This document shows, piece by piece, positions 8,415-63,310 of a stretch of DNA of 64,000 bases. The position numbers were made by a program, and so were the translations under genes. Every line of letters starts with the position of its first letter. Position 1 is the stretch's first letter. The stretch is taken from NCBI GenBank assembly GCA_949710005.1, contig OX453275.1, forward strand, positions 35,470,294-35,534,293, written 5' to 3'. The notes under the pieces are model-generated. The model ran no database searches. It was not told the DNA's origin and saw nothing but the letters and a program-made list of their open reading frames with translations. The stretch comes from Ricordea florida (Eukaryota > Cnidaria > Anthozoa > Corallimorpharia > Ricordeidae).

Positions 8415-8511
8415 ATGGCGCCGAGAGAGAGACTTTTTTCTTTTGCTCATGTTGCTTGGATATTTCTTGTAGGAGGTGTACTATTGACGTTCGCCAAATT
8501 GCAAGTTCCAG
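8415..8511 (+). CDS. Gene A exon 1: signal peptide
   Basis: The ATG is followed by [10 protein letters not shown], then a hydrophobic core ([14 protein letters not shown]). The exon ends CCAG|GTGAGAA, a good donor, in phase 1. Length is 97 nt. The basic n-region followed by an uninterrupted hydrophobic stretch is typical of a secretory signal. The 4.6-kb intron after it contains the TTAA transposon and part of the 106-bp satellite. Confidence 0.7.
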
Positions 8512-11500: not shown

Positions 11501-14500
11501 TAATGCTGTGAAATTTTCAGAGAACTAATAAGACAGTCAAATCTGTGAAATGACCCACTCTTGTGTTGATCTGACCATTTTTGCAGGAGTTATTAGCAAT
11601 GAAATTTGGGTAGACCTTGGCAAATTTTCCATGTTTCAGTAGCTGGTCGTAACTATAAACATATTTAAGGTTTTTACATGAAAGTGGCTCATTTCACAGT
11701 CAACAATATTATATACAAGCTTGCAAAACTTGGACTTTATGCTGTGTTTCTCAGTTGAGATATTTGGTTCCTAAAATACCTTATTTTCAAAGGTTCGGAA
11801 ATGGGTGTGGCCACATTTGTGGCTGTGGCTCCTTAGGAATTTAACGAATTTGTCTAAAACTTTGGAACTGCACATTTCAAAGAATACTGTAACTAGATGT
11901 GTTACTTAAATGTGGATATTGAGAATATAATTGACCATGGAAATGTTGCAAAAATGACAATTTTCAGCCTATCGAGCCACCTTAATACGAAATTGCACTC
12001 GAAATTATTTGATTACTTGTTAAAAATATAAATGTAAAAGTTTTATTTCAACTTAAATTTCTGTACTCATTTTCAACTTTCTGCACTGTTTGAGATTAAT
12101 TGAGGTGTTCTCAGCTGAATCAGTGTTGACATTTTTGCATGTATATTATTGGATAAACAAGGACCCTCTTATTTGTTACATGCAGTACTGTTACAGTACA
12201 AGAAAGAAGAATATTGATCTAGAACTACATTGAAGTTATTCAGTGAATCATTCTTTCACTTGTTGGAAGTTAATGCTAGTACTGCTGTACAGTTTTTCTG
12301 TTTTTAATTCAAAATGCAATGTAACATCCTTTGAAAAGCTACCGAATGTTATTGTACTACATTACTGTTTTTTCACTGAGTATGAAAACATGCTGTGTGA
12401 CCATTCTCTAGCAAGCTACTAAATGGTGCCGCTGTACTGTAGAACCGTTTGTTTTAGTGTACAGTATCATGGTTCTAACTTTTTTATCTGTGGATCAAAT
12501 CATGCAGTGAGACCATTCTTTGTAAACGGCTACTGAACAGTACTATACTGTGGTATTAGAAATTGGGATAAGCAAACGAATTGATAAAGTAAGTTATACC
12601 ACCGTAAAGTGAACCTCCCTTTTACCTTACGGTGGTATAACTTACTTTATCAATTTGTTTTATTATCCCAATTTCTTGTGCTTCAATTCCCCACCGCCAC
12701 CGACGCATCACCAGTTTCTTAAGAAACAATCCCCACAACACACGTACTGTGGTACCGTTTGTTTTACTATAAAGTGCGGTTTTAACTTTTTATCTTTGGA
12801 TCAAACCATGCGGTGTGATCATTCTTTGGAAAACTACTGAACAGTACTTTACTGAGGTACTTACTGTTTGTTTAACCATACATCTGGGAAACAAACCATG
12901 CAGTATGGTCATTCCTTGGAAAATCATTGAATGGCATAGTGCTGTAAAGTGATACTGTTTGTTTCGCTTTACAGTTCTAACTTTTTGAGGGAATTTCGAC
13001 ACAGCCCAATATTTTACAATTTGCATTTGACACTGAATCTCGAATCGAAGTCAAGGGGTATAAGAAGTTGGCGTCTGGAGGAAACGAAGAAACCTCAAAA
13101 TCTCTCTCTGTTTAGTTAATGCATTAACTTTTCGCAGGCATCTCTTACCACTTGGCGACTTGTGGTGGTCAAAACTGCGATTCGGTCTGTGGAACGTTTG
13201 GCCTTATATGCGCCCGGACTGGACAGAGCTTGCCATCGTCCTCGGCCCTACCAATCTTCGAGTCCCTGGGAATAAGCTGCATTACTGATAACTCCACAGA
13301 TACGTATGTTTTTGAAGATAATCCAAATTACTGGGCTGAGGATGCATGGGCTGGCAGGTGTCTCGGGTTCAAATCGATCCCAGCTACTATAGATTGTGTC
13401 ACAGCCAATAATAAAGCTGTACGTAGACTGTGCCCCTGCTTGAACCCATTAGGTAAGTAACTTTCTTTCGCTCTGACGAAGGGCTCATGGGCGAAACGTC
13501 AGCAGCACTTAAATCCTACGGTGATAAAACCTACTTTATCAACTGAACTCGTTTGATAAATCATGTTTTATGCCAGTTCAATTTCCTACCGCCGCAGCAC
13601 CAGTTTCTCTAGAAACAAACTCCTTGAACTCTCTAGATCTAAGAGAATCGCAGTATTATGGAGTAAGTTTTTAATCAAAAACTATGCAGCTCTCATTGGG
13701 TGCCTACATTTTGACGTGAAGATCCGGGACATCAACCATTTGCTTTGTCAAAAAATTCTAGTCGCCATGTTTGAACTGGCACATTTTGCTAACCAAAATT
13801 CTATTGCCGGTTTACGCCTTATATTCCAATTCCCCCATCCATCATAATAGCTCTTGACTCAGGCTCCACGAGCCAAAATGGATTATCACATCGAATCGAA
13901 AAACAAAGGGCTAATAGTTAAGAATTCAGCTTCCTCTTTATCTCAAGGTAATAAAACTGACACATCGATTCGTTTGGTAAATCCATTTTGTTTTGTACTC
14001 GGGGATACTGTTTTTGTTCACTGCTAACTGGCTCTTTGTCAAAAAGGTTCAGTGCAATTTCTTTTTCGATTATAATTTAGCCGCATAATTTTGCAACCGA
14101 GTTTCGTCTCACTCGCATGCGTTACCAATTTCAGTCACTAGCCGCTACTGCGCACGCCCGCTGCGGTCAAATAGCACATCAAACGAGTGCGATCGATCTC
14201 AAACTCTTTAACCGCTGGTCAGTGGGACGTGGGCTCTGGGAACGAGATTTGATCGACCTAGAAATTGATCAATCTGACGGGAGAAAACTTGAAGCAAGAG
14301 CATTTACTGCCTTCCAGTAAAACAACAACAGAACTGCTACAGACATCAAACAGCCAGACAATACAATCAAAGTCAAGTCTACAAACAACACCACATACAT
14401 CAATCAACAAATCACATTCCACAGCGGTGACGTCCGCCGAGTCAACAAAGAAAGAAACGACTCCCCAAGAGACTTCCACACGTGTACCCCCAGAACAGGT

Positions 14501-17500
14501 GGATACCAGGGCAGCACGGGTGGGCGTGGTAGAGAGGAATACGTTCATTATTGCAGCAGTCCTGGGGGGTGCTCTAGCACTGTGTGTGTCTGCATTGGCT
14601 ATTGTCCTGCTTAGGAACAGAAAGCAACTTAGGTGAGCTGCGGCACCATTAACATGTAACCGTGTAGTGTTGATTTCGACAAGAGTATTCCTGCATTCGT
14701 AGTGTTTAAGTGAGCGATATATCCACTCGCTTTTTCACAGTTTTTTTTTTCATTATTATGGATGGTCTGGACCCAGGAGTCTCAGGTGTTGAATTTTTTG
14801 TCGAATTTGATCGCCCGGGTGAAAGTCGGAAGTTCCGAGAAGAATTCTCGTTGACGTTGACTGACGTTTGGCAACTTGAGCGGAAGCCATCATCAGAGTC
14901 AAGCGAGTTGTGTTTCAACAAACAACTACAGCTACAGACGTTTTCGTTTGTGTTATATTGTGTCCTTTTTATGTTCTTAATCTATCTATGTAAATGCTAG
15001 TTATGTGTATACCTATTTGTTTTGTTTATTTCTATTTTTCCCTGGTTTATTATAAATCTACTGATAGTAGGTTACACACACAGGACAAAATCACTGATTT
15101 AATGAGGCTGAAAGCTAACCTAAAGGTTAACAAATGATGTGTTTTGTGGATCCTTAAGTTTTACACGAAAATCCTGAAATGTTCCTTTAATTTGACTTTA
15201 AGGTACTAATTTAAGTCTTCTTATGAAGCATTTTGTAGCAGCTTTAATTTGTAATTAAAGATGGCCAAAAGGCTTATTTCATAGACTTTAAGTGTGCTGC
15301 CCAAATGGCCTTAAAACCGCTTTTAATTCACCTTTAATTCACCTTAAATGTTTGATTGTTCATTTAAAGTCTTCTTTAATTGCCATTTAGTGTTACATTA
15401 AAGGGTCATAAAATCACATTTAAGTTTTCTTTAAGTCAACAAAAAATGCCTTAAAGATTTCTTTAGGGTCACGTTTAATTTTCCTTTTTTTTGGACTAAG
15501 AGTAACATGACCTGTGGTAAGAAGTCCTAATAAGAGACCATATGATAAATCTGCTTTACTTCATTGGTAGAAGCTAGGGTGAACGCTTCTTTTTTCATAT
15601 TTCTTGTCCACATTTTCCCTCACTTATTTCAAACACAACCAAAGTGGACTGATATTCCATTCTGCATCTTGGCTTTCTTTCAGGAGACAAAAAATGTTGT
15701 GAAACCAATTGAAAGATTAAAGTTAACATCACTTTATTCTACATTTAAATGCAACAAATGACAAATCAGGTCTATTTACATCCTAGCAGGTACAACAGAC
15801 CCATTTCAGCAGGAAATATACAAGCATATTGTTCATATATCATGTTTTTACATCTATTTAATTATAATATACTTGTATTTGCACTGCTAGTAAAACTGTC
15901 ATAAGAACTACTATAGATGAAGCTTCACAAAAACACTAATGTCTCTACACTCTTATGTGTTGCTGTTGTGCTGCTTTATTTACCCATGGTTGTTTCAAAC
16001 TTTGAAGTATTTCCAGAAGAGGTGTAGCTCTGTTCTTCCATGATCTTATTTTGTCTACAGGCAACCAGACATTTATTAATCACTCTAGCAAGTTGTTGAG
16101 AAAAATGTATGCAGACAGCATCAAAAGAATCTGAGCACTTAAATGTAATAATTTCTTTTGAGATTAAGCCAAAAACCTTGCTGTAAAACAAGTAAAAATT
16201 AATGAAACTAAATCTATTTATACACCGATCAGTGATGCAAGCAACACAATTATTACACAGGGTTGCCACTAATTGGGATGGAAAATTTATTTCTGCCACA
16301 GAAATAAACAATTCCTTTGCAGGAACTTTACAAAATGCATTACTTTTGTTAACAAGCAATCTCCACAACCTAATGACTAGCACAAAGTAAAATTCCTCGA
16401 CTTTTAGGTATATTGAGAATTTCAATGACATCATTTACAATTTTTCAACTTTTTCTTAACCTTGAATAAAAAAACAAACAAACAAAAAACGTTTTTGCCT
16501 GACCATGACAACCCTGTTACTCCTCCGTTAACAGTATTTGTAGCCAGAGCAATGACAATTGAAACAAGCCATCCAGTTAACATCATCAAATAATTTCCAG
16601 TTGGCTTTTGAGTTGTCTCCATTGTATGCCAAAGTTCCTCTCATAGTGCCACTGCAGTTATACACAAATTAAATTGAAACTAGCCATCAAATTAAAATAA
16701 AAATCATTCCCACTTTGCTTGTGACTTATCAGCATTGTGTGTCACTGCAGTTATACAGCCTTCGAATGAAAAATTTGTTGAAGAATATTAGGCAGTGCAT
16801 GTTTTTTCCAAAAGTATTTTAGCAGGTACAACATACAGTTTATAATAGCTAGTACAAGGCAATGTATGAGCTCTTTGTCATGCTCTTGGCAGTATTGAAA
16901 AAGAAATTAGACTTCTTTTCATAAAGCCATTTCTAAGCCTGTATTTTGCACTTACTAAAATGTCACATTAAATTAATTTTAACAGCCCACTCAGGAAGGC
17001 CATGAGGGGTCTCCTCTTCAGACAGGTCACTTGATATTGTCCTAGGAAGGGTTCTTTACTTAATAGCCAACAACCTTTGGTTGACCATTCCCATCATCCC
17101 CATAGTTGCTCTCCTCACTGCTGCAGCCCTTCCTTTTGCATTGGCATCTTGCTACTGAATCACATCAAGGGCAACTGCGTGTCTTGTTTATTTCTGAAAG
17201 ATAATGGAACCCAGTTGACATCGCTGTGTAACCATGAAGGGCATTAAATTAACATTTTTGCTGGTAGCCACTTGGCTCTTAAAATTAATTTTTATCTTTG
17301 AACATCTACTTAATTCACTATAACTTCACCCTATTTTAGCCCAGAATTTGTCATTTTCCAAAACCATATTCAGAACTACTGCAGGCTCACATGTCTTTTT
17401 TCCCTAGAAATGAGTTTCTGTTTGAATATGTTGGTATTCTCTTGCACTCTGCACCAAACTACATTGTAACAGATGGAAGCAACCTGTGTTTAAGTACAGG

Positions 17501-24400: not shown

Positions 24401-27400
24401 TGTCTGTGCCATTTTGAGTGACCACATTACAACCATGAAGTCCTTAACAAATTTGGTGGGAGAGTATAAAGGGGACTGTGGACAGGGTTTAGGGAAAGGC
24501 AAGCTAACATTTTTAAATATATTAGTTGTTCCTTTGTGGAAGATTTCCGTGAATGAAAGATGACAGTAATTGTATTATGGGTTAGTGTTATGTATATTGA
24601 CTGGATTGAGAACATAAAAATAAACTTAAACCTCAATCCATCAAGCCTGGCCTGGTGGTATGTCAATCTGCAAATTTATGTGATGTTAATCTGCAAGCCA
24701 ATATAAAAAACTGAAAAACCGTTGATTCCCAAAAAGTGAATTTTTTATTGTTATGCAGAATATTATGAACATGCAATTTTAACAACTTTGGGTGTACTCG
24801 ATGTTTCTGAACCTGACCCGCACAGAGTTGCTTTTGATTGTCTAATCTCACTGCATGAGGTTGCCGAATATCTTTTCCTTTCGTGTCTTTGAAAGGTTGA
24901 TCGTGATACCACATCGCAACGGGCGCAATAGACATATCCTTTAGCTCCATTGTTTTCCATGGTTTCTATTGCTTTGAATTAATGTTGTAAAGGGAAACCT
25001 AAAGGAAAGCAGCTGCAAATTGCATTTTCTCTGTCTTCTACTAAATCCAAGGGCCAGGAAAATACTGAATAAGAAATACGTACGGCTGCGCCACGTGGTT
25101 CTTTTCATCCGATCAAATTAACTCTAGGCTCGGCGTGAAAAGGTAACTTAATTTTGATTAAAGATCACCTAAAGATCAAGTTACCTTGACGAACTTTAAT
25201 TTCCAATTAAAGATATCGAAATATCTCATGACACTTTAAGTTTGATTTATTTCAAAATTAAAGATGTTAAAACCTTATAGGACGTTTTGGGAGAAAGAAA
25301 AGACCCCCAAAATTAGACCTAAAGTTTGGCAATATTAAAGTTCAACAAAAGGTACATTAAAGACTCATTAAAGATCGATTTCACCTTTTGGATATTTCCT
25401 GTCGCCATTAAAGACAATTAAAGATAAGATAAGGCTTTAGTTAAACTTTAATTTTAAACTAAAGACACCAAAGTATGTGTTTTCGCCCTGTGACAGCTCG
25501 CCTCGATTAGCGTTGCCATATGTGGTTTGCGTATTTCTCCAATTTGTTAAATTTAAACATTGAAATAAAATGATGGTGATAAGGATGATGATGATGATGT
25601 TTGTGAAAGATGTAAAACATAGCGCATAGAATACCTTAAACCAGCAAATCATTACGATCTTGAATTAGCCTGCGATGCCAGGATTGGAAATTCGAAAGAC
25701 ACACAACTGAACCCAAGCTTAACAGGACCTGAAATTTGAGTATGGAGGAGAAATATTCCATGGAAACCGTTCATAGGTGAATTAGCCCTTTTCAGTCATT
25801 ATAGCCTGCTGAAATTTCCAGAGCGGTATTGCCTACACAACTGGATTTGTTACAGGCAATCAGACATTGCAGAAAAAGATATGACGTGTCTCAGAGGGAT
25901 TGGAATACAGGCATGTGAGCGGACAAATGTCCTATAGGCGTTTTAAATTTCAAACGAGGTCCTTATTTTAAAACTTGCCAGGAAATGGACTTCTCGCCTA
26001 TAGTTCCTAACATTTCAATTCAATTCAATTTATTTATTTATTGCAATTAAATGCCCAAGTCTTGCAGCTCGTTTGCAGCCAGTCGTACAATATACATATT
26101 TTTTGAATTTGTTTATCTATTTTGATTTTGTATTGATAGGGCCATGCAGAATTCAGGGACTGAAAATGAAAAGCTTCATGATGGATGTCATGTGAATAAA
26201 AATGCTTTTGAAATGCAGGAAATGATTGATGGATTAACAGTGGAAACAAACATAGAAGAGGGACAGAGGTACTGCAAAGCAGAAAGTATAACTTTGAATG
26301 GGATTATTATCAATTCCTTAATTTATTTAAGGGGGCTAGTTTTTGATTCGTTACCTCAGAAACGAAACGAAATGGATCCAATTTGGAATTGCAATAGTAT
26401 TTCGATCATTTGTTAGGCATATTTTAGTAACGGAATTATGTAGGACAGTATTAGGGCTTTAAACAGGGGTCAATTCTATAAAACGTTTACAGGGACTGAT
26501 TGGAAATGATGTTAAGTGATTTTAAAGCCTCGCTCAGGAGATGAAAGGCTGTGCCAACCCGTCTCAAAGCCAAGGGGTTTACAGAGGCTTTTTCTTTCAA
26601 TTCCAGATACAGTCAGGTGGAATCCGGAACGCTCTCAATAAAAAATCCAGTTGAACTTGCTTTGCCCGTCAAAGAAAAACGGTGAGATTTTAGAATGATA
26701 ATTATTGACAGAAACCTTTTGCATGAGGGATATCATTACGTTTAACTGATTTTCATTCACTTATCTAATCAGCAGCTCATACTACGAAAACTTGAGGGAT
26801 CATGAGACTGAGAACATACTGTACGTGAGGTAATGAGAAATAATCAAAGAGAGGAAATTTAAAAAACAATGGTCTTCAAAAGCCTCGAAAAAAACTTATT
26901 AGCTTTACGTATACTCAGGCAAGTGTGCATGATTACAATCTGCCTTTCATTGCTGTTGTTTTCATTGCGTTCTAACTGACATGTTATCTGTACATTAAAC
27001 CACGCACTATCAAGAATAGTGGTCATTTTCTGGGGAGCTACTAAACAGTACTTTACCGAGGTACTGTTTGTTCTACAATACAGTGTTGCTCTAATTTTTT
27101 TTATGTTTGGATCAAACCATGCAGTGCGACCATTCTATGTAAACTTCGGCTACTAAACTGTACTGTACTGTTTGTTTTACAATACAGTGACTCTAACTTT
27201 TTCATCCAGTCTTTGGATCAAATCGTGTAGTGTTCGCTAAAGAAAGCCACTGAACATTTTTTATTGTATTGCTTGTATATACTGTAACTATATTTCAGTG
27301 CTTTCATTCGTTGAAAACCTCAGTGCTGAAGAGTTTTTTCGGCCTGACTTTTATACTACGTAGCTTTTTTATAACATATGTATACCATGTCATTTCAAAA

Positions 27401-31157: not shown

Positions 31158-31239
31158 ATGAAGCTAGCGAGGAAAACTGGATTTATTGTCCTTTATACGT
31201 TGTCTGTTTATGTGTCTGCCCAGCTCAAATCTCCTTCAG
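31158..31239 (+). CDS. Gene B exon 1: signal peptide
   Basis: The ATG begins [20 protein letters not shown], a basic n-region and hydrophobic core, then AQLKSPS and a phase-1 donor TTCAG|GTAACAC. Cleavage after VSA is plausible. A 5.3-kb intron follows. Confidence 0.75.
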
Positions 31240-38792: not shown

Positions 38793-41700
38793 GTTTTGCG
38801 TACGTTAAGGCCCCCAATATGTCCCTTAGAACATCATACAGTACGTTTCTTTTTTCCAGAGTGTAAATGGCACCTTTCAAACATCACGGGTGAGTTTTCT
38901 TCGCCGTATTTCCCTAAAAATTACCACGATTATCACGACTGCTTGTGGAACATCACAGTTCCTGACGGCCACGTGATCCAATTGAAATTTGACGTGTTCG
39001 AGTTAGAGTCCAGCCCATTATCTTGTAGCTCGTGTAACTGTGACTATGTGGATGTGAAAGAAGAGACCCCTTCTGGTGGAATCAGATTTATTGGACGATA
39101 CTGCATGACGTTTACACCTTTACCTAATATTCAATCATCCAGCAACAAAATGATTATAAAGTTCCATTCTGATCATGCCATATCAGCCAAAGGTTTCAAG
39201 GCGTCGTACACCGCAGTTCAAATCAAAGGTACGGTTAAAACAACTTTGTTTTTATTTTGTGTACATATGTTATTATGTGTTTCTGATTTTCTAAGAATTC
39301 CTTCAGCAGTATGTAGCCTTACTTTCAGCTTTTCCATTCCGAAACTCAAACTTTAAATTTAAACAAATTTAAATGCTTTCACTCTCAGAGTCAACCTTGA
39401 GTCATGCAATGTGGTTCCACTGAGTTTGGCATTCTCAGAGCTAGAGCTTGAGTCGTACAGTGTGGTTCTAAATTTATTGCCTCTCAACTACAGAGTAAAG
39501 GGTAGTCGAACCCAGCACCCAGTGCGATCATTTCTGTGACATTAGATTCCTTACAATTACCAAGTCTAGCCCTGAGGTACATTACGCCACTTTCTAACAT
39601 CAATCTCCCTTATTTCCACAATCAAACCTCGCGCTATAACTCTGAGAATTACTCGTGAAAATTAAGTCATACCCGAGGTTAATATACTCTGAATTTGGCT
39701 CAATTGTCTTTCTTTTTAACTCTCTCAACCTTGAATTGTGTCACTCATACGATCTTTTTCTGACGTTTAACTGCGTCAATATCACAGTCAGTCTCATGCC
39801 GCGTTCACACCTACTAAACTTGCTTAGTTGAACTAGGTTTGAAGTTTTCACACCAGCCTTCCAAACGATTCAAGTCTAGTCTTTACACATAGTGAGAAAA
39901 AGAGGCTAACAGTGATTCAACTTTAGAGTCAGTAGAGAATTTACACAGAGCTGTTTTGAGCAAAGTGATTTCAAACCATGTTTAACTAAACAGCTTTTAA
40001 AAATGTTTAAGCTCTGGTGTGAATGCAGCATTAGTCTCATACTCAGCTGGGTGTGTTTTTACTTTTAGCTTTTCCACCCCCAAAGCTAAATGAAGCCCTT
40101 AACCGGGTGATTTTGTTTCCCATTTCGTTCCCAGAGCCACTGATGTTGTGTACTCTGACGATAGAAATAATCATTGATAGATATTGAGCTTTTTTTTTGT
40201 GTTTTATTTTACAGTGCCATATTCCTTGAGTTACAAACTTGACTTACTTGTTTTTTTATCGTTTCTTCTCTTCTTTCATTCAGAACGAATTCCCACAACT
40301 CCAGTATCCTTCTCAACCATTTTAAAAAAATCTCCAGGAACCACTAAAAGAACAACAATTGAACGGTCAACGTCGAACGCGACGCAAAGAACCAGAACTA
40401 TTCAAGGATCGTTTCCTACAAGCACAACCTCATCCCAAACAACTAACGGAACGGCGATTGCAGAGAAAAAAACACAGCAATCAGAATCGTCCATTGAACC
40501 GTTCACAGAAGGAAAGATTTCGACAAGACAAGGGTTGTCATCTGCTAAATCTTTTACTTTAGACCTAAGAAGAACAGGCAAGGTTATTTTCGGCTATAAA
40601 CCGAGAGTGCAAACCCATTCGGTATCAGAGTCACCTGAAGATGATGAAGCCGAATCGCCAGAGCCTGTTATACTTGCATTGAAGTACTCAATTATTGCAG
40701 TCGGCTCGTTTGTTATTGTGGTTCTTGCTGTTGTGTTCCTGGCTTGCAAGCTTTGCAACCGACGGTAAACTTACTAGTCAAGAAATATATCCCTTTTGAT
40801 TAAGAGTGTTAAATACCAAGAATATTTCCCCAACAATATCATGACGATAAAAAGCATAGGTAAAATAATCAACTCATGAAATATTATTGAATTTACCTGC
40901 CTTTTAAGACAAACCAGCCCAGCGTGCATGTTAACACAAAATCGCCAAAATTAAACTTACAAACATACAAAATTGTATTTCCATTGGGAATATTGCAAAC
41001 GCAAAACAGCTTTCCGGGCCCAGTAACTTACCGAATCTTTCGAGAAACGGGTCCTTGGAAAGCTATTTCAACTTACGATCGCAATGTTTACAGGGGGGAT
41101 TGCGCTTTCGGGGTTGGTTTTCAAGAATAAGTAATACAATTCTGCGTTGTCAACTTCCACGGTAGGTTGGTTTGTACGCAATGAACTACAAAACGTTTGA
41201 TAGACTCCGGGACTCTCAAGAAACGGGTCCTGGGCTCCAAGATCGTTTCTTCATGGAGTTTCCTGTTTTTCCCGCTTTAACTTATGAGCAGGAGTGATTA
41301 AAATCTTCGCAAGTAAACGTTAATCCACACAGCTACTCAAACAGTGTGCATGGACCGCCCGGGTGAGTATAGTTAACATACTATCTATTAAGACAGGTCT
41401 TCTTGTTTCAGGCGCAGTTCCCGTATGAAGGCTAGCAGTCATGAAAGGCAGCGGTATTCTGTCACCTACACCTCGGTCCTGGATTCAGTTGGATCCAGCC
41501 CCCCTTCTTCACCGTTAACCTTCTGCGATGAAAGGTACGAACAAGAGCTTGAAAATCCGAATTTGAAATAAATAAATAAATGAAATTTCTTTTTGAACTT
41601 TTTTCTATTTAGCATGTCTATTACCATCTAGCAGCTAGATTATACTAAGTCCTAAGTGAGTAAATCTGATTTTAAGAAATAATGCGAAAATTAAACTACT

Positions 41701-45058: not shown

Positions 45059-45059
45059 A

Positions 45060-45632: not shown

Positions 45633-45899
45633 ATTTTACAAGGTATATTGGTATATACGGAACTCCCGCGCGCGCCAAATTTTATTCTCCAAGGCAAGGT
45701 CGATGTGTATTTCCGTAGCTCGATAGTTTGTAATTTATTGAGCTCGCGTACGTTTGTAAGTTCGCACTAACATAGAAAAAATAAACGCGATGACTTCTTC
45801 TTTTGCCACCCCCCACCCCCTTCTAACGATTCGCCTTGCAAGCCGGTGCAGGAGATCATGGTGATGGGTTCCTGGCTGATGATGTTACTAGTATAGGTA

Positions 45900-48020: not shown

Positions 48021-49581
48021 GCCGATTTCACAAGTGTATCAATCAAGCAGCCCCATAATCAGCAACCAAAAGCGACCACACAACAAATACATTTAAAAGT
48101 ATCATGGAAGAACTAATTTTACACAGCTGTGATGACCAACCTCGAAATTGAACTGATCCCCAAATGGTTTCTTTTACCAGAAAGCAAAGGAGTATTAAGC
48201 GCCACATCACATGTACAGTTGCCGCGCAGCTCAAAAACCCTTTGTAAACGAATTACTATGAGTTGAAAAAGAAATGCAGCAAAAACACCTGTTAGATGAG
48301 GACCGTGATCAAAAGGCGCCAAACTATCGTGCCGTGTCTCACAAAGAGTTGTTAAAATTACTTCAAAGATGATTTGAAGGTTATCTAATGATCTGTGTGA
48401 TATAGGTAAACAGTCGGCATAGACACAGACAAAACAATGCAGCCTTCACTACACCGCGAATACACTACGAGCAAAAACTGAGCTTTGTCCTTTTTTAAGT
48501 CCGTTGTGAGATAAATTTTGCATGGACTAAAGAAAAGAGGAGAGACCTGAAGGCTATGTGTACAACGAGCCAGGTAAACGATTCAGAATGTCCGTCCAAA
48601 CGTCTCAAGGACCTGTCCCTAAAATAAGCAAGTAAAACGTTTAAGAATTATAAAAGATAATATTTCAACCGATATTTAAATCGCCCCGCCTTATAGACAA
48701 TAGCTCAAGAATGATAAAAGAAAAACAAACAAAAAGACAAAGCGAAACAAACAGAGAAAAGGTTACTTGTAGCTTTGTTTTCTTTCTACTTGGAAGTTTT
48801 GACTGATTATATTGAGTTTGAGTTTCTTCAACGGAATTTCAGAAAAGTTTTAAAAGAAGAAATTAGCGACATGGTTATCTAACCGCAATATCAAGATAGA
48901 TAGGTTGCAACTGAGCACATTACAATGAATTAACAAACCACAGGCCTCTTTTGCAGTCCAGTCGCTTTCCAAAAATGGTGCTGTTACTCCGCGGGAAGAT
49001 TTATCCTAAAAAACGTCAGGAAGAAAGAAAAAAAAAAAATAAAAATAAAAAATAGACAGCAAAAAATATAACTTTTAAAGGACTGATAAGATGGCTTGGC
49101 TTTATTCAAGTACCCTATGTCATTCGTAACAAAAACGTTAACCATTACCCCCACCATTCCCTCGTCAATTTGCTTCAACCCTAGCAAAAAATCACTGAAT
49201 TTTGAAGTTAGAAAGTGCTAAGTTTAGAGATTCGGGTTTGTGGTATTTGGTTTCCAAAGGGGACTGATAAACGCTTGATGTTCACTTTCTGAGAACGTTA
49301 AATGAAAAATCGATTTACATTCATATCGAATTCTCTCAACTAATATACAAATGTTTACGGAACCTATTAGGGAGAAGTCACATTTTAAGTGGGAAATGCC
49401 TTTCCCAAGGTTGTTGAATTTCGATACTGTCGTGTTGACATTCTTGTCGGGTGGCTGGCTATCATCGTTGCTTCTGTCGCAAAGAGGTCATTCGAAGTTC
49501 ACGGAATAGCAGTAGACGAAGTTTCAATCACGAATCGTTCGGAAGTAAATTTTCTACCTGATTCAAGGTATATTGCTTTAG
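48021..49581. other. Intergenic, no gene recognised
   Basis: A-rich runs near 48720 and 49030. Short frames without domains on both strands. Confidence 0.4.
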
Positions 49582-49657
49582 ATGCAGGACTTGCGGATCT
49601 TAAGGATTTCGTCCAGTGTTATGCAGTTATTCTTCTTCCTCTGTTTCATCACGGAAG
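49582..49657 (+). CDS. Second copy of gene C signal-peptide exon
   Basis: 76 nt: ATG, MQDLRILRISSSVMQLFFFL, CFITE, donor ACGGAAG|GTAAATA in phase 1. It is homologous to 51590-51665 in length, donor phase and residues (MQ..xI.RIS......F...CF.xE). It could be an alternative first exon of gene C, or the relic of another receptor copy whose body was lost. The joined frame with the ApeC exon would be open. Confidence 0.55.
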
Positions 49658-51589: not shown

Positions 51590-51665
51590 ATGCAGGGATT
51601 TGGGATTTCAAGGATTTCAGCCTTTCTTTTGCCAATATATATCTTCTGTTGTTTTACTCAGGAAG
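51590..51665 (+). CDS. Gene C exon 1: signal peptide
   Basis: 76 nt: MQGFGISRISAFLLPIYIFC, then CFTQE, donor CAGGAAG|GTACGTG, phase 1. A hydrophobic core follows a short basic region. It is the nearer of the two homologous first exons to the ApeC exon. Confidence 0.7.
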
Positions 51666-54600: not shown

Positions 54601-57600
54601 ATGGTCCTTCTGCCCTCGGACTGTGTTTATAACCTTCTTAGTAAAACTATTAAATTCCCCCAAGCTAGACTTTTCTCTGCGTGATTCCCTTTGAATTTCA
54701 CGCATCTCTAGATCCCGGTACAAGTTTAGGGTTTTCCAGTTGAATTTCGCGGGGCTGTGGAAACACGGCGTCAGATGTCTCGGTATTCGTCATTTCAGAA
54801 CAGGGTAAATAAGTCACATCTCGATGGCATTATAGAGTGTCTGTTTGCATTGAAAACATTTCACGGAAAGACGTTATTGTCTTCTCAGGTTTAAAGTACA
54901 AATGTAAGCTGTTTCAGGTCCTCAAATGGTAAGGGGCGAGTCTCAGGCCTAGCATGGAACAAGTACTGGGGCAGCTCTTAGCTCCAGGGGTTTGTTTCTC
55001 TAAAGACCTGGTAACGTATTGGGCCAATAAGCTCTTTTATAATGGCAATGGTATCTACAACGTGAATTACAATGTTGTTGGTTTTCAAGCTTAAACAGTA
55101 CAATTCTAATCTAAATTGCATGTTGAGTTGGTATGTACTTGAGGAACTACGAGACCATTCGGTAGATCACGACCTTACAATGGCGCTCCGGGCCCGCAAA
55201 GTTGTCGGGACGTGCTAAAAACGAGTCCCCAGCTTCCTTCATTTTTCCCGGCCATGCCTGGCACTCGCCCTTTACCATCTGAGGTCCTGGAACAAAGTAG
55301 TACAATTGCTTCTTATCTCTTTTATTATCATACAAAAAAGGCTCAGTTTACTTAAGCCCAGACATTGCGTGCGATGACAAAGGGAAAATTCTCAGATGGT
55401 CATGACCTTGTTGAGGACATTGAGTGGTACTTCAAACAACTGAATGCTTTGAGTTCTTGGCATGTGACAAATGGCAATGAGAGATATGTTTTTAAAATGA
55501 GCAATAACCGTAGGAAAACGTAATATGGCATAACAAATATGGTTATCTCATGAAAAAAAAAGAGACAGAAAGAAAAGAAACAAATGTTTAGGGTATTTAA
55601 CCTTAAAACATCATGACAAGTGTGATACTGTTTTGCGATACCTACTATAATTACAATATCTGAAGTTTCCCCCGCAAAATTTACATCTAGCCAAGTAAGG
55701 TGATTTGTTGCATTGATTTAGTTTTCAGCAAAAGTGGAGGTTCTTCGGAGAACCAGTGGCCAGCGGGAAAATATGGCTTACCCATGGCTAAGACTGGCTG
55801 CCCAAGTACCAACGGCTTTCAGTGGGATTCAGGTTTTATTTACCAAGACTTAGAGAACAACAATACTCAAACGACAACTTCTGCAAGCTTTCACCTCCAA
55901 GGGAAGGTGAATGGAGATGTGCTACGTCATTTCTGCATTAAGAACAACGCCTTTAACACTGTTAACAGCACCAAGTCTGATTGGCCCAATGGGCAGTACT
56001 GTATCTATAAGAAGGGGTCGGTTTGTCCCCCGTCCTTTCAGGAAGGATGGGTACTGTGGGATGATGACAATGGAGTAAACGGCAGCAATATGAACAACAA
56101 CTCTGGCGTTGTCCCGAATGGAACTTACAAATCGGACACAAAGATCTTCTTTTGCTGCCAGACCGAAGGGTCAAGTGCGACACCTATCTCGTTACCCATT
56201 GACAAGCCTTTCTATTTGATAGCTTTTAAAAAACAGTGTCAGGAGGTATGGAAGACCTTGCACACTGTAGAGTATATACGATACGATACAGAGAATGACA
56301 ACAATCATGATAACACAGGTCTTATCCATCCTTACGGTGCTCAGTTACCCAATCCCTACATCTATTACTGTTATTACCAAGGTAAGGGTGTTAAGTGCAA
56401 GCTAGACCAAAGCTAATACAAGAGTTAATCACTCATTATGATCCAGATACTAAGATCTCGCCTCTTGAATTCAGCGAAACAAAGAAATAATAGCCTTAAG
56501 CCATGAAGAAAGGTTTAAACAACACACATTATATGTTGTGCACCCTTTGGCGATCGATTGTTGACATATTTAACAGGATTGTTGGACGGGAGCTGCGACT
56601 GCCAACGGAACCAGTCCTGACCAATATCTTTTGTTTTATTGCCCCTTTCAACATTTATGATTTAACTAATTCTATAGGATCTGTTTTTAGTCACTGAAGC
56701 GCTTGGCGCGCTCACACGTCAAATTAATGGCGTAAGCGTTCGCAAAGAAATTCAAACGAAAAACGAAGGTGGACAGTAGACACAGAAAATTCAGTAACTA
56801 AAAACAAATCAGGAAAAAAAAACAACAACAACAAAAACAAAACAAAATGTAACTAAAACGCACGAGTTGAACAAAATTGCGCATTCGGCTGTCATTCACA
56901 AGTTGACTACATAAGATGACGAAGAAGTATGCGCGCCGAGCACGTGATTCGCCTCGGCAAAGAAATAAAAATGGTGCAGAGCATTTTTAATACTGGCTCC
57001 AATCTGTTTACTTTGACTAGAACTAAGATTTATTCGCCAGAAAAATTAAAGCATAAGGTGGAGTAGGAGACGTTTATTATCGTTATATATTTTTTTATAT
57101 TTAAGATATGATAAAACTGTGCGAAAGTGAATATATCAAAATCTCATATATATGTGAACTAAGGAAGGAAGATTTCATAAATGAAGGATAGTCGCAGTTG
57201 TGTGAGCAACGTAAGCAGTCAGAAAGAAAAGACCTGAAAATAGTCAGGCCTGAATGGGATTCGAACCCATGATCTTGCGATACCGGTGCAATGCTCTAAC
57301 CAACTGAGCTATCAAGCAAACTGGAGCTGATTATCTGTGAGTTCGTGAGATACTTGTGGAGGATTAAGATTTTGAGCCCGGATTAAGTTACTCGTATAAC
57401 TGCGACGACCTTTTACTTCTTAAATAAAATATTACGAATATGATATAAGGAACATTTTTAAAAAAGCTTACATTGTCCGTGATGTCTAGCTGTCAGGGAG
57501 CTTTCAAAGGCAGGCAGGACTCCCACGCTCAGGAAGACACAAGGAAAAAATATTGTTTTCCTTCTGCACTGTTGGCGCCTGGCACGTTTCATTTTGCAGT

Positions 57601-60600
57601 TCTATTTTTCATTTCCTTGTGACAAAATATCGTACGAATTTTTACTCAGCATTGTTCATTTGCGAAAATTCAAAAATTAAATTAAAAAAATATAATTTAG
57701 TTTTAACGTTTAATATCTTGCTAGTTGTAACAATTTTCTTTACTGAATCTTACGTTTTCTGACATTTTGGACAGAAAATGAACGTGTACAATGCGTGTTC
57801 GCAACAGAAAACAATATGAGAAATATTCCACCCCTGTAGAAAAAACCGACGTGTTAGATCGTTACTTTATGCCTCGGACTTTTCGCATTTGTGCTTGTTT
57901 AAAAGATAGCATAATTTTATTTAGTTTTTCTCTCTTGCTTCGCTTACATCGCTTTCGTTATTTGTAGTCAATTGTCACAGAATTAGTAATGAAAACTTCG
58001 GAGAAATATTATTTTCATTTTCGTCTTCGTAGTAATGTGCCTTGTGTTGCAAATATCAATTGACGATTTTTTTGGTGTCTTCTTTTATTGCTCTACAGCT
58101 TGCGTAAGGAACATGACTGCACTAACAGGGACATTCTCAAGTCCTGGCTACCCTAAAAACTACTACAAAGACAACACTTGGTGTGAATGGCACATAAACG
58201 TACCACAGAACTACTATATCTCTCTGACTTTCGACGATTTCCGCGTTGAACAGCGTTCTAATTGCGAAACCTCAAGTTGCAGTTGCGATTATGTTGAAGT
58301 ACGCGAGACATTCACCAATGGCAGTTCAGTAACTGGAGACAAGTATTGTATGGGGGAAAAAAAACCACAAAATGCTTTTAACTCAAGCAGTAATCAATTA
58401 ACTGTTGTTTTCCGCTCAGACGAAAATACGGGTGCTAGAGGATTTAATGCCACGTATCGCTCTTTTCCACTATCAGGTATAGAGTATACTTTTAACCGCC
58501 TTCATTATTGAAAGCTAGAAATAAGCAAGTAACTGATAGAAATACCATCCTTACAAAAATAGCTTGGGTTATTAGATTAATTTCGCCGAGGAACAAAAGT
58601 AATAATTAAAAATAAAACAAAAATAATTGGCAACGTAAATGAATAAAATTTATTTCTTTAAAGTTAGAGCTATCACAGTTGATTGCAGCCTGGTAACTGC
58701 GATCGAAAATCGTGCCGAATCCTAATTATTTCAATTCATCTTTGCAGGCTCCTCAACTGGACCGTTTTCTACGACTCCTCCCCAAAGTACAACGCCCAAA
58801 ACTAGTTCAACGGGTGACGGTTTAACCACCATCTCTACAACACCTTCAACGCTATTCCCAGCAACATCATCAGAGTCTTCCACAGATACCACCAAACTAT
58901 CTACCACAGCAACGGTGACAGGGGCATCTCCAGCGACAAATACAGGCACGCCCTCTACTCCTGTAGCGACAGCTTCCATCATGCCAAATGTCTCATCCAC
59001 AACGCCCTCCAAAACCAACGAGACAACTAGTCAGCCTCAAACCGCCACCAAGGAACAAACAGAGGCACCACCAACTGCAACCACAATAAAGTCGACTACA
59101 GGAGTAGGTTTAGAACAAACAACTACTACAAAACCGACATCAAGGGTTTCTATGGTGATAGTTGCCGTGGTAGCGTCCTTGATTCTGATCACTGGAGGAT
59201 TAGTGGTGATGTCACTTTGTTTATGGAGGAAACGGTGAGCAACTGCATTCAATATATTGTTTATTGCACATCACTAATAATACAAAATATAATGATTCTC
59301 TCACACATGACTAGGAACATCCCTTCTTCAATTTTGTTTCACGTCATGTATCCGAATGTTCTCTAAATGTCAGGATCCTAGCTTCAATAGAAAAACTTTG
59401 TCGTCATGAAGCTCATCTGGGAGTACTGGTTTCATTTTGCTTACTCTCTAAACTCCAAAAACAGAGATGACATAATATGTCGTGTCTATGCTCATGAACA
59501 TGGAAATGTATTGCAGCAATGACGCTAGAGCTATTTGCATATAGTAGGTATGAAGTTATTTTTTATGCACGCATTTTTCCTTGTGACCCACACTCTCCCT
59601 TTTACCTCCTTTCCTCCACCCCTTACCCCTGTTCTGTAGTTACCACTGTTTAGCTCCCTCGACTCTTCTAACCTACCTCCTCAAGCATTACCCGTGTTCC
59701 CTGTGTCATACCCCTCACCCTTTATCTCACATCCCTTACACCCACAACAGACCTGCTGTCATACCCCTCACCCTTTATCTCACATCCCTTACACCCACAA
59801 CAGACCTGCTGTCATACCCCTCACCCTTTATCTCACATCCCTTACACCCACAACAGACCTGCTGTCATACCCCTCACCCTTTATCTCACATCCCTTACAC
59901 CCACAACAGACCTGCTGTCATACCCCTCACCCTTTATCTCACATCCCTTACACCCACAACAGACCTGCTGTCATACCCCTCACCCTTTATCTCACATCCC
60001 TTACACCCAGAACAGACCTGCTGTCAGTGATAATAATGATGATTTGTATTGCGCACTTTTTCATATGGATATGTTCAGAGGTTTTTCACATGAATTCTTC
60101 TATTAATTAATTACAATCAATACTTGAGCGCTTAAAGAATGGAAAGGGGAGATGGAAGGATGAGTTCTGGTTACATTGGCTGGAAACGTAAACAGTTATT
60201 TCTTATACAGGCCTTTTAAAAGAGGTACAATGAAAGACAGACTGAGGGTAAACTTTACAGCTACCCCAGAAAAAACGACTGGGTTTTCCAACGTCACTTT
60301 TGAGCTATACGGAGAAAGGTGAGGCTCAAACGTCATTTAGCGAGATCTCATAAAATAGCACCCAAGGGAAACAATACAGTGAAATTATTCATGAAAAATG
60401 AGATCCCATGAGATAGCACCCAAAGCAAACAATACAGTGAAATTATTCATGAAAAATGAGATCTCATAAGATAGCACCCAAAGCAAACAAGAGACTGAAA
60501 TTTTCGTGAAAAAGGAGATCTCATGAGATAGCAACCAAAGCAAACAAGACACTGAAATTTTCGTGAAAAAGGAGATCTCATGAGATAGCACCCAAACCAA

Positions 60601-63310
60601 ACAATACACTGAAATGTTCGTGAAAAAGGAGATCTCATGAGATAGCACCCAAAGCAAACAAGACACTGGGACAAGAGAGGGTGGCCTCATCCTTTCTTGA
60701 GTGAAATTATTCGTGAAAAATAAATCCAGTATTATCAGTTTTGTTTGCCATCGTTCTTAAAAACAAACCACGAAATGGCTTTTTTTTGTAGAAATGAATG
60801 TTCAATATTGTTTCTCACTTTGACTTAGATAATCCATGAAGCTACATCTCGACCTCGTCAGGTGGTTAACGTTGTCAGTGATTTTCACTGGTTTCATTTT
60901 CCCTCAGTTTTCATCAATTGGTTTTGATGTAATATAGCAAACATAAGATAGTGTTTCGTCACATCAAACACCAAGAGGAGAGCTGATAATACGACGCGCA
61001 GCGGAGGATTTTTAGCGAAATTCTAGGTGTTTGATATGTGATTAAACACATGTATGGAGTGTCTGATATAGCTTCTTGAAAGAAATTAGTTAGATGGATA
61101 AAATAACGATGCAAAAACAAGTCGTGTTTCATCAGATATCCAAACACGACACGGTGCCTGATTTCCTTTGTCCTTCTCTTATACATTATTAATGCGTCTG
61201 GGAATTGTTGCCTTCATTGATCGGCAGATCCCGAACTGACAATTGTCAATAGCGCACAGCCGACTCTGTAGAAATAGCTAGCTGTGAACAGAAGCCTTCT
61301 GTTTTGAGTCTCTTTTTCAGAGAATGTAAACGGAAATTTGTTGTCGTTATGATAAACAATGATATTTGACTTCCTGTAGGGATAACAAGGTCTATCAGCC
61401 AAGATACGTAAGTGCAGTAAAAGTGGAAATCCCCAACGGAATCCACAGTGTCAGGTATAAAGATAATTTACATGTTATAGCCTCCATTCACAATAAACAT
61501 ACTCAGCTCGTTCGATAATTTATAACGGAGTAACTTCAAACGGTGCTATTTTCTCTCGTGTTGAGACAATATACATGCTCTGTACTCGTTAGGGAATTGT
61601 CTCTCAATGTACCAAGGACAGACGGATCTATTTTTTTCTTAGGGACAGTAATGTGAACCAACCCCGATACGTGGATGTGAACTTGGAAAGTCGGAATGTA
61701 CATGTACCGCATTGCAAAAGGTAATCCATATTTTAGGTTTTATTTTTATAATAACCATTATGCAGTAACCTCTGTTCCGGCCTGCATCGCAAACGTAATC
61801 TATTCCCGGTAATAAACTTGACGAGGGGTTGAGCTTCGTCTTCGGCTTGCGCTCCTGTTTCCGGGTTCTATCTAAAGTACTATATTCCACATAGGACATA
61901 TTGCTAACGACTTACGTTACCGCCCAGTAATGCCGTGATGTGACCGTAATAACTGACTCGTGAGCCAAGATGTTAAATGCAGCGGTATTATTTTACTAGA
62001 TTAAGACCTCGGTTAGAGTCCTATCGCCTGAGACTTGAACCTACGACCTTTCACTTCGCTGTCTTCCGCACTACAAACTTAGGGGAAGGAGGGAGGGATT
62101 CTAAGGGAGAATCAATAAATCTCTCAACTCCCCTGGCCGCGACGACAATGGGACTTTGTGTGGTCCATACACTTTTTATAGCTTGCATTCTCCTTAGAAA
62201 CTTCAATAGGGAAAGAGATATTCTTTTTCTACTGATTGCAACAGGGGATGTCGAACTGCAGTTCAGAGGACAGATCCTAGGGAAGAAGCTAAAGAAAGCA
62301 GAAATCCTCTATATGATGCAAACAGGTCGGTGAAATATAGCAGTCACAGTGCACATAGGCTTTTAATTACTGTTATTTCACTAAAAAGTGTCACGCAAAT
62401 TTTGATCTTGCATTGGGAGCAGAGCTAATACAAGTGTTGTTTTAAGACATAGATACCTTAAAACATAGTTTCATATCTTCGCTCTTTCCTTTAGATGTTA
62501 ACATTTTCTCAGGCTGTTTGGAAGTATAGCTTTTTACTTTTCTTTCTGGTTTAGAGTCCAAATAGTGCAAGAAACCTATAACCCCTTGTATGAGAGGTAT
62601 GTGGAATCATTTTGTCTCATTTGTAACTGATTTGGTAGATTTAATTTTAGGCCGGCTATCCCGGATTAAACAATAACTGAGTATTATACCTTACATACGC
62701 TTATAACTCGTTTGCTTTTTATGAACTCAGTGGGGGTTTAACAGAAAACCTTGGTTGGCGCCAATTGGCTTTCTGTGAAACGGATAACTAACGCTTAACG
62801 CTCAGACTTACTGTAGTTAGGACTAATTGGCTTTCTACTTAGGGACCAGTGCGAAGTTACTGGAGTGCCGATAAACGCTAAGCCGGGAATACACAATTGC
62901 TCAAGTGCAGTGCAGTAGACTTAACCCTCGGTTAACCCTAATAGGCTTTCTAGGTACCTGGCTTTGCTGGGTAAGTCTGGTCGATTCGTCACCCAGACTA
63001 CTTTTAAATGCGTTTGTATCCAATATGACGTCGAAAAGAATGGCCATTTTAGCGATAAGTACACCACATATGTACCTCTTCAAAATTCTTTCGAAACCCC
63101 ACGGAAACAACGGAAACGCTTGCTAAGAGGGCTAGCTCATGTGAAGTGCGGCGTATGACCTGGGCCTAAGCCTATTGCGGTTACTTAAGCAAGACTCTTT
63201 AGCCAAGCAGTTTTCCTTTTCATTTTCCCCTTAGGTTGAAGACTGAGGCCTCCAATAGGCAGAACCTGTCAAAGGATCTCTGGGTTGATGGTCCAATTTA
63301 TGAGAAGTAA
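51590..63310 (+). CDS. Gene C: membrane-anchored ApeC-CUB receptor with QPRYV/NPLY tail (multi-exon span)
   Basis: Ten exons: 51590-51665, 55722-56381, 58099-58476, 58748-59234, 60211-60318, 61380-61454, 61643-61720, 62254-62325, 62555-62596 and 63235-63310. The sum is 2052 nt, in frame, 683 aa. Order: signal peptide (1-25), ApeC (26-246), CUB (246-372), Thr/Ser/Pro-rich stalk, membrane helix (about 510-530), tail of about 150 aa. It is paralogous to gene B in domain order and exon phases, but the tail exons differ, with two QPRYV exons, two NPLY exons and a terminal PIYEK. A role in surface recognition, perhaps of microbes, is inferred from ApeC. Introns hold a tRNA-like sequence and 53-bp and 57-bp arrays. 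Confidence 0.85.
51666..55721. other. Gene C intron 1
   Basis: 4 kb without a recognised exon or transposon. Minus-strand frames at 52301-52693 (130 codons) and 54436-54723 (95 codons) have no domain and no supporting splice sites. An A-rich GAAAGAAAAG tract lies near 55555. Confidence 0.4.
55722..56381 (+). CDS. Gene C exon 2: ApeC domain
   Basis: The phase-1 acceptor is TTGATTTAG at 55719-55721. The stronger-looking TTTTCAG at 55728 would break frame. Donor TACCAAG|GTAAGG, phase 1. Hallmarks: WPAGKYGLPMAKTGCP, ASFHLQGKV, VLRHFCIKN, DWPNGQYCIYKKGSVCPPSF, WVLWDDDN, VPNGTYKSDTKIFFCC, KPFYLIAFKKQCQEV, YDTENDNNHDN, PYIYYCYYQG. All eight ApeC cysteines are conserved with gene B, and several N-glycosylation sites are visible. 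Confidence 0.9.
56382..57245. other. Gene C intron 2, first part
   Basis: Contains a short (AAC)n/(AAAC)n tract at 56812-56850. The frame at 56503-56697 has no domain. Confidence 0.4.
57246..57318 (-). tRNA. tRNA-like sequence (Thr-GGT-like, probably a tRNA-derived repeat or pseudogene)
   Basis: The minus strand reads TA + GCTC-AGTTGGTTA-GAGC (D arm), TTGCA-CCGGTAT-CGCAA (anticodon arm with GGT at 34-36), and ATGGG-TTCGAAT-CCCAT (T arm), with an acceptor stem of TGCTTGA against TCAGGCC. Box A and box B are good. Against a functional tRNA: position 33 is C, pairs 31-39 and 1-72 mismatch, and the TCAGGCC end recalls coral short repeats. It lies in intron 2 of gene C, antisense. Confidence 0.55.
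57319..58098. other. Gene C intron 2, last part
   Basis: No exon found before the CUB acceptor. AT-rich with short frames only. Confidence 0.4.
58099..58476 (+). CDS. Gene C exon 3: CUB domain
   Basis: Acceptor TTGCTCTACAG|C and donor CTATCAG|GTATAG, phase 1-1, 126 codons. CUB landmarks: GTFSSPGYPKNYYKDNTWCE, WHINVPQNYYISLTFDDF, NCETSSCSCDYVEVRE, DKYCMGE, SSSNQLTVVFRSDE, ARGFNATY. The extra cysteine cluster before CDYVEV is shared with gene B. Confidence 0.9.
58748..59234 (+). CDS. Gene C exon 4: mucin-like stalk and membrane helix
   Basis: Acceptor TCATCTTTGCAG|G and donor AAACG|GTGAGC, phase 1 to 2. Over 120 residues are dominated by Thr, Ser, Pro and Ala (TTPPQSTTPKTSSTG, PTATTIKSTTG), which suggests dense O-glycosylation. 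Then the helix (VSMVIVAVVASLILITGGLV, then VMSLCL) and WRKR as stop-transfer. Confidence 0.85.
59707..60024. repeat. 53-bp tandem array, six nearly identical copies
   Basis: Units start at 59707, 59760, 59813, 59866, 59919 and 59972. Each begins CATACCCCTCACCCTTTATC and contains TTACACCCACAACAGACCTG. Only single-base differences are seen, so expansion is recent. It lies in intron 4 of gene C. Because 53 is not a multiple of three, the long frame across it cycles through all phases and is not a gene. Confidence 0.97.
60211..60318 (+). CDS. Gene C tail exon 5
   Basis: Acceptor TTCTTATACAG|G and donor GAGAAAG|GTGAGG, phase 2-2, 36 residues. A basic start (RPFKRGTMKDRLRVNF) and the end SNVTFELYGER. 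One tyrosine, with no clear consensus motif. Confidence 0.75.
60342..60670. repeat. 57-bp tandem array, six copies
   Basis: GAGATC-type landmarks at 60342, 60402, 60458, 60515, 60572 and 60629. Each unit holds GAGATCTCATGAGATAGCAC, then CCAAAGCAAACAA and a TGAAATTTTCGTGAAAAA end. GAGATCTCATGAGAT is a near-palindrome. As the unit is 19 codons long, the minus strand shows a repeating 19-residue frame, which is an artefact. Confidence 0.95.
60671..61379. other. Gene C intron 5, remainder
   Basis: No exon or repeat recognised beyond the 57-bp array. Confidence 0.45.
61380..61454 (+). CDS. Gene C tail exon 6, QPRYV copy 1
   Basis: Acceptor ACTTCCTGTAG|G and donor AGTGTCAG|GTATAA, phase 2-2, 25 residues. 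It encodes DNKVYQPRYVSAVKVEIPNG. Homologous to the next exon. Confidence 0.75.
61643..61720 (+). CDS. Gene C tail exon 7, QPRYV copy 2
   Basis: Acceptor TTTTTTTCTTAG|G and donor GCAAAAG|GTAATC, phase 2-2, 26 residues. It encodes DSNVNQPRYVDVNLESRNVH. Aligned with exon 6, the D-x-x-V-x-QPRYV core and the following E...N...H match, so one exon was duplicated. Confidence 0.75.
61721..62253. other. Gene C intron 7
   Basis: No further exon recognised. Short frames without domains. Confidence 0.45.
62254..62325 (+). CDS. Gene C tail exon 8, NPLY motif 1
   Basis: Acceptor TGATTGCAACAG|G and donor CAAACAG|GTCGGT, phase 2-2, 24 residues. It ends KESRNPLYDAN. The charged run before the motif resembles gene B exon 6. 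Confidence 0.7.
62555..62596 (+). CDS. Gene C tail exon 9, NPLY motif 2
   Basis: Acceptor TTCTGGTTTAG|A and donor ATGAGAG|GTATGT, phase 2-2, only 14 residues: VQIVQETYNPLYE plus the split codon. Confidence 0.75.
62597..63234. other. Gene C intron 9
   Basis: Three TTAACCCTC/ATTGGCTTTCT-type words near 62760-62960 suggest worn repeat units. No exon recognised. Confidence 0.4.
63235..63310 (+). CDS. Gene C terminal exon 10
   Basis: Acceptor TTTTCCCCTTAG|G gives LKTEASNRQNLSKDLWVDGP, IYEK and a TAA stop. The terminal tyrosine (GPIYEK) is in a sequence like NPLYE. An ATTAAA variant signal lies at 63562-63567, 250 nt further on. Confidence 0.75.

Follow-up and report, generated by a model that had tools for sequence, protein, structure and literature searches.

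The 64,000-nt window analyzed here (C4:35470294-35534293 in the single Ricordea florida assembly used, with 538 Mb in 48 contigs) carries two neighboring genes, B and C, which most likely encode uptake receptors for microbes. In both genes, the predicted order is signal peptide, ApeC domain, CUB domain, Ser/Thr-rich stalk, transmembrane (TM) helix, a series of tail exons with phase 2 at both ends (2-2), and a stop exon. The ApeC ectodomain would bind a polymer of the microbial surface, for instance peptidoglycan, and the CUB domain would act as a partner or spacer on the mucin-like stalk. In the tail, two or three NPLY[DE] motifs, one per exon, would dock endocytic or phagocytic PTB-domain adaptors, other tail tyrosine motifs may serve as SH2 sites, and the receptors would mark bound particles for uptake. 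As a whole, this reading of B and C as diverged tandem type I ApeC receptors, with microbe binding outside and NPLY[DE]/PTB docking leading to uptake, is given an even chance. The domains and their order, a hydrophobic stretch spanning the membrane, matching exon phases, repeated motifs and a similar set of genes on C11 are seen in the sequence itself, whereas we infer the ligand, the adaptor docking, the uptake and the splicing as drawn.

Domains were assigned via Pfam, and exons via lists of open reading frames (ORFs) together with a small exon scorer, the splice matrices of which were generic metazoan ones rather than matrices trained on this species. When joined at scored splice sites, the 9 exons of gene B form an uninterrupted frame of 632 amino acids and the 10 exons of gene C one of 686 amino acids (Table 1). 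The phases run 0-1, 1-1 (ApeC), 1-1 (CUB), 1-2 (stalk and TM helix), 2-2 (four exons in B, five in C) and 2-0. As far as DNA can show, B and C are confirmed as genuine genes. Weak splice sites are the ApeC acceptor (-0.9), the CUB donor (1.3) and the donor of the second tail exon (0.5) in gene C, and the TM exon donor (1.5) in gene B. The signal-peptide exons of both genes are predictions based on ORFs, hydrophobicity and a donor scan. ApeC and CUB domains had been proposed for both genes by the original prediction and were recovered there, each within a single exon (PF16977 and PF00431); the ApeC matches score 243.6 bits in B and 245 bits in C against a curated cut-off of 26.5. Eight Cys columns are common to the two ApeC domains, and eight cysteines have been reported as typical of ApeC (PMC8361754). 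No MACPF match was found by Pfam in the exons of B or C. A second signal-peptide exon (49582-49657) lies upstream of gene C. It is 76 bp long like the one at 51590-51665, with which it shares 50 of 76 bases in unlike flanks, at a similarity score that was reached by none of 2000 shuffles; it may be an alternative first exon of gene C or the relic of a lost copy. A tRNA-Thr (ggt) was called at 57246-57318 on the minus strand, in the ApeC-CUB intron of gene C, and represents either a gene or a tRNA-derived element.

The tails of B and C contain three and two NPxY-type NPLY[DE] motifs, respectively, in separate exons 3′ of the TM exon, and when the whole window is read in six frames, all five matches to NP[LIV]Y[DE] fall into these tail exons. 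In endocytic and phagocytic receptors, NPxY serves as a docking site for PTB adaptors. With a single scorer threshold throughout, five 2-2 candidate exons were listed in the 3.7 kb past the TM exon of B and six in the 4.1 kb past that of C. After alternative acceptors of one exon had been merged, four distinct candidates remained in each tail, corresponding to all four tail exons of the B model and to four of the five of the C model, the fifth (61380-61454) lying under the donor threshold. Elsewhere, the scan gave three 2-2 candidates on the entire 64-kb minus strand, none at 28000-36000 of the plus strand and one at 45000-55000, which uses the same donor as the signal-peptide exon at 49582. 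Three more, amounting to two exons, were listed in the long stretch 3′ of the TM exon of gene A, the upstream neighbor discussed below. Per length of sequence, the B and C tails thus hold about twenty times as many distinct 2-2 candidates as the minus strand. As a phase control, 0-0 exons were counted (none in either tail, seven on the minus strand), as were 1-1 exons (two in the B tail, one in the C tail, two on the minus strand). The excess thus lies in phase 2-2, and the tail exons of B and C exceed chance. Self-comparison of the window also revealed tandem repeat arrays at 22565-24456, 59700-60026 and 60342-60668, with spacings of roughly 330, 53 and 58 bp.

ApeC exon matches number 35 genome-wide. 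A single-exon ApeC occurs only in B and C, which are also the sole ApeC matches on C4, and the domain is split into two or three pieces in the other multi-part genes. The expectation that further clustered ApeC/CUB genes with the same phase pattern would exist was borne out within this genome, on C11, where six ApeC genes are located at 27.400, 27.403, 28.337, 28.373, 28.380 and 28.422 Mb. Among the CUB matches listed, a CUB lies downstream in five of the six genes, with that of the 28.422 Mb gene being partial, and none was listed for the 27.400 Mb gene. TM exons were read in five of these genes, stalk exons in four, and NPxY tails also in four, at 28.337 (NPLY), 28.373 (NPSY, NPLY, NPIY), 28.380 (NPLY) and 28.422 Mb (three NPLY); no NPxY tail was read for the 27.403 Mb gene. 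Among the 21 C11 ectodomain exons examined, a donor was scored in 19 and was best in phase 1 in 18 of these, the exception being the first ApeC exon of the 28.373 Mb gene, where a phase-0 donor scored higher. Acceptors were likewise scored in 19 exons and were best in phase 1 in 18, with the partial CUB of the 28.422 Mb gene as exception. By best score, all five TM exons are entered in phase 1, and the four with a scored donor are left in phase 2; the fifth has no scored donor. The remaining ApeC matches belong to two genes of C8, to some four of C9 and to fragments located on C1 and C5, and no CUB beside any of them is among the CUB matches listed. The C9 matches at 19.33-19.53 Mb and 30.19 Mb are fragmented or contain in-frame stops and may be decayed or differently split copies. 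SRCR-like 1-1 exons, named by eye, adjoin the ApeC-CUB gene at 28.38 Mb (C11:28382001-28392000, offset 6896-8053).

B and C look like old, diverged tandem duplicates. Their ApeC domains are 48% identical, and that of B is 50% identical to the ApeC of the 28.42 Mb gene. In an ApeC tree of 10 genes, which left out the fragmented or stop-containing genes of C9, C1 and C5, B was joined with C at a support of only 84/81. The CUB of C is closest to that of B (E 9.1e-22; 116 matches listed). CUB trees, one of them without the incomplete CUB of the gene at 28.42 Mb, did not resolve the placement of B and C. A joint query of both tails (261 amino acids) gave 11 matches in the genome, of which ten lie within B and C; the eleventh, at C11:28341765, falls into the tail of the ApeC-CUB gene at 28.34 Mb, in one of its exons. 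As the C11 ApeC genes make up about 0.01% of the genome by rough arithmetic, a tail match there is unlikely to be due to luck. A query with a tail exon from the gene at 28.37 Mb matched itself, two C11 ApeC-CUB neighbors and one place on C6 (E 1.42). Two patterns drawn from B, consisting of NPLY[DE] followed by GTRAG within nine bases, had 2 and 4 matches in 538 Mb and none in a backward-read control. Three of the six matches are in B, one belongs to the ApeC gene at 28.42 Mb, and two are at C11:16862099 and C11:17443026. The match at C11:16862099 was rejected as a further NPLY exon, having a stop codon directly before the motif. The joint tail query and the pattern search each provide a weak link between the B/C and C11 groups.

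Several points weigh against the uptake reading and against a design shared by the two groups. NPxY motifs are also used by adhesion receptors. The tail match between B/C and C11 has an E-value of 1.25, which is not significant by itself, and the pattern census is partial, the NPLY exons of C itself having been missed owing to their donors. Three CUBs of C11 ApeC genes appear at ranks 15, 16 and 21 of the 116 matches listed for the CUB of C, behind CUBs of other genes; the other two C11 CUBs are not among the matches listed. ApeC and CUB may therefore have been combined on two separate occasions, on C4 and on C11. Domain order, phases and tail speak for a single origin, whereas the CUB does not. 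In addition, the DXED motifs of ApeC look degenerate in B and C when read by eye (e.g., DTEN), and published ApeC proteins have mostly been described as secreted in the portions of the literature covered. A deviation in all three DXED motifs has also been reported for amphioxus ACP5 (PMC8361754).

The main rival to the uptake reading, which we consider unlikely, is that B and C are adhesion receptors. In this case, the ApeC-CUB ectodomain would bind extracellular matrix or a neighboring cell, and the NPLY motifs would link to the cytoskeleton as integrin beta tails do. NPLY-type motifs are known from integrin beta tails, and the founding ApeC protein, apextrin, has been reported from the apical extracellular matrix with a proposed role in apical cell adhesion (PMC8361754). 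However, the ApeC proteins tested in the portions of the literature covered bind microbes or peptidoglycan, as has been reported for amphioxus ApeC proteins as microbe binders (PMC8361754) and for two mollusc ApeC proteins as peptidoglycan binders (PMC9585378), and the combination of several spaced NPLY cassettes with other tyrosine motifs in the tails also argues against adhesion. Of the two immune cell types described for a stony coral, one is reported to show enrichment of ApeC transcripts, which are listed there among secreted proteins (PMC8162421). The occurrence of ApeC in membrane-bound proteins has been mentioned in general terms, without this architecture in the part of the source at hand (PMC9585378).

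If the uptake reading of B and C is extended to C11, a dedicated lineage uptake family on two chromosomes can be tentatively envisaged, in which ApeC binding would be wired to serial NPLY cassettes whose number sets the strength of uptake, and in which the ApeC-CUB pairing was perhaps made twice around the same tail. We regard this extension as possible and put it forward with little confidence. The novelty that had been claimed for the family stands in part: no membrane receptor combining ApeC, CUB and an NPxY tail was named in the titles and abstract openings searched on ApeC, apextrin and cnidarian NPXY, although the combination may be described in the survey of ApeC architectures by Li et al. 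2021. ApeC proteins as such, some of them with CUB, are well known.

A different role had been suggested for the gene cluster by the original prediction, namely that of a locus generating recognition receptors by exchange of exons. Such a self/non-self (allorecognition) or otherwise diversifying recognition locus, in which exons are swapped between genes, is very unlikely. The compatible phases, the tandem arrangement of B and C, the doubled signal-peptide exon and the second cluster on C11 are in line with it. However, compatible phases are a general rule: according to a review on exon shuffling, shuffled domains are of class 1-1, introns close to the end of a signal peptide are in phase 1 more often than expected, and phase-2 introns of the AG|G type interrupt a codon for Arg (PMC8001218). 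The phase pattern of B and C equals the usual metazoan class 1-1 rule and is therefore no sign of a special locus; it permits swapping without demonstrating it. The tail searches from B and C, from C11 and from gene A did not clearly show the same tail joined to ectodomains of different types, and no clear sharing of modules was seen either. The searches with the module and tail of gene A were single-sequence queries over 538 Mb, which distant relatives would escape. Exon exchange is not supported, and B and C, besides which C4 has no ApeC match, are far diverged. On these grounds, and given the doubtful kinship of gene A described below, the proposed generator of receptors is not supported.

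Gene A lies upstream of B and C and had been grouped with them as kin of common exon logic, with a different Cys-rich module in the same slot. It is improbable that all three genes are full members of a single cluster in which A has had its ectodomain replaced. The three genes are adjacent on the same strand, and A has a phase-1 signal peptide, a 1-1 module with nine cysteines, a phase-2 TM exit and 2-2 tail exons; these common features are general to modular membrane receptors. The signal-peptide and module donors of A are sound (7.1 and 6.5), but the best stalk acceptor, at 14318, has a score of 1.1 and is in phase 2, so that the frame is broken when the exons are joined at their best splice sites. 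Three phase-1 stalk acceptors were found at 14100-14330, the best at 14284 with a score of -7.2. As a bridging 1-2 exon in 13460-14310, only one poor candidate was obtained (14142-14217; acceptor -1.5, donor 2.9). Three explanations are conceivable: splicing uses the low-scoring acceptor at 14284, a small exon escaped the search, or the gene is damaged. Given the phase mismatch at the stalk acceptor and the single poor bridging candidate, full membership of A in the cluster was left unproven. The exon logic claimed for all three genes applies to B and C, with full frames and the stated phases, and the Cys-rich 1-1 exon of A exists but has no in-frame join to the stalk at the best splice sites.

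The tail exons of gene A are plausible candidates in which no NPxY motif was found. In single-sequence searches of the 538 Mb, its module had no second copy, and its tail matched gene A alone. The module resembles Glyco_transf_18 (PF15024) with E 0.0037 and 16.4 bits, below the cut-off of 28, and its place was not listed in a genome scan for this family at E <= 1; the interpretation as a C-terminal piece of MGAT5 was rejected. A comparison with the PDB gave no kin among seven matches, the best of which (E 0.095) was a lysozyme. Gene A is probably a neighbor of doubtful integrity whose kinship to B and C is putative at most. MGAT5-type Glyco_transf_18 exon clusters are found at C2:17.22-17.33 Mb, C2:9.40 Mb, C2:5.85 Mb and C12:2.53 Mb, those on C2 apparently representing several tandem genes. 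Intron 1 of gene A contains an open Mutator-like transposase frame (9507-11375, 622 amino acids, PF20700, E 5.4e-88), and its large intron contains an inverted repeat of about 0.7 kb with 93% identity (18160-18852 / 19097-19830), probably a mobile element. A retroelement endonuclease is encoded at 1-924 on the minus strand (PF14529, E 4.2e-11).

Table 1. Exons assigned to genes B, C and A, with positions in the window and the basis of each call.
Feature	Position	Strand	Basis and remarks
Gene B, predicted signal-peptide exon (0-1)	31158..31239	+	ORF/hydrophobicity/donor scan; in-frame join
Gene B, ApeC exon (1-1), complete domain	36553..37188	+	PF16977, E 2.4e-72; phases
Gene B, CUB exon (1-1)	38860..39228	+	PF00431, E 3.1e-26
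Gene B, Ser/Thr-rich stalk and TM exon (1-2)	40284..40764	+	in-frame join
Gene B, juxtamembrane tail exon (2-2), Tyr motif VTYTSV	41412..41534	+	frame join, exon scan
Gene B, tail exon (2-2), ENPLYD	42748..42807	+	frame join, exon scan, pattern search
Gene B, tail exon (2-2), INPLYE	43020..43091	+	frame join, exon scan, pattern search
Gene B, tail exon (2-2), ENPLYE	44200..44250	+	frame join, exon scan, pattern search
Gene B, last coding exon, CMNYVNL and stop	44425..44449	+	frame join
Second signal-peptide exon upstream of gene C	49582..49657	+	similarity to 51590-51665
Gene C, predicted signal-peptide exon (0-1)	51590..51665	+	ORF/hydrophobicity scan; in-frame join
Gene C, ApeC exon (1-1), complete domain	55722..56381	+	PF16977, E 8.6e-73; acceptor -0.9, weak
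Gene C, CUB exon (1-1)	58099..58476	+	PF00431, E 4.1e-25
Gene C, Ser/Thr-rich stalk and TM exon (1-2)	58748..59234	+	in-frame join
Gene C, tail exon (2-2)	60211..60318	+	frame join, exon scan
Gene C, tail exon (2-2), VYQPRYV, weakest of the set	61380..61454	+	frame join; donor 0.5, below scan threshold
Gene C, tail exon (2-2), NQPRYVDVNL	61643..61720	+	frame join, exon scan
Gene C, tail exon (2-2), NPLYD	62245..62325	+	frame join, exon scan, motif
Gene C, tail exon (2-2), NPLYE	62555..62596	+	frame join, exon scan, motif
Gene C, last coding exon, GPIYEK and stop	63235..63310	+	frame join
Gene A, signal-peptide exon (0-1)	8415..8511	+	splice scoring
Gene A, 9-Cys module exon (1-1)	13138..13452	+	splice scoring; weak likeness to Glyco_transf_18 C-terminus
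Gene A, stalk/TM exon, best acceptor phase 2	14318..14632	+	no in-frame join to module exon
Gene A, putative tail exon (2-2)	26140..26268	+	donor 0.2, weak; no second copy found
Gene A, putative tail exon (2-2)	26607..26681	+	top-scoring candidate of its stretch
Gene A, putative last tail exon and stop, or spliced onward at 26829	26773..26833	+	exon scan

If the uptake reading of B and C is true, these genes would provide a concrete candidate receptor for the uptake of ApeC-bound bacteria or particles in this animal. In the portions of the literature covered, work on ApeC has so far mostly concerned proteins that are secreted. The definition of the ApeC-CUB genes and of their tail exons is good enough for expression, binding and uptake assays.

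Among known systems, the phagocytic receptors Draper, CED-1 and MEGF10 are type I proteins with NPxY and other tyrosine motifs in the tail and an EMI/EGF ectodomain. Compared by description, their tails are of a type like those of B and C, whereas the ectodomain of the latter consists of ApeC and CUB. The amphioxus proteins ACP1, 2, 3 and 5 share the eight-Cys ApeC with B and C, and ACP5 also has a CUB (PMC8361754); CUB and ApeC are likewise combined in amphioxus fucolectin/C-type lectin-CUB-APEC proteins (PMC12373286). In the ACPs, CUB precedes ApeC and a membrane anchor is not mentioned in the parts of the sources at hand, in contrast to the order of ApeC, CUB, stalk, TM helix and NPLY tail in B and C. 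Apextrins (MACPF-ApeC) have the ApeC domain in common with B and C but are reported to be secreted (PMC8361754), whereas B and C are predicted membrane receptors without a MACPF match. With class 1-1 modular receptors of metazoans, B and C share the phase-1 signal peptide boundary and modules as well as the AG|G phase-2 junctions (PMC8001218), and the comparison showed no difference in exon grammar.

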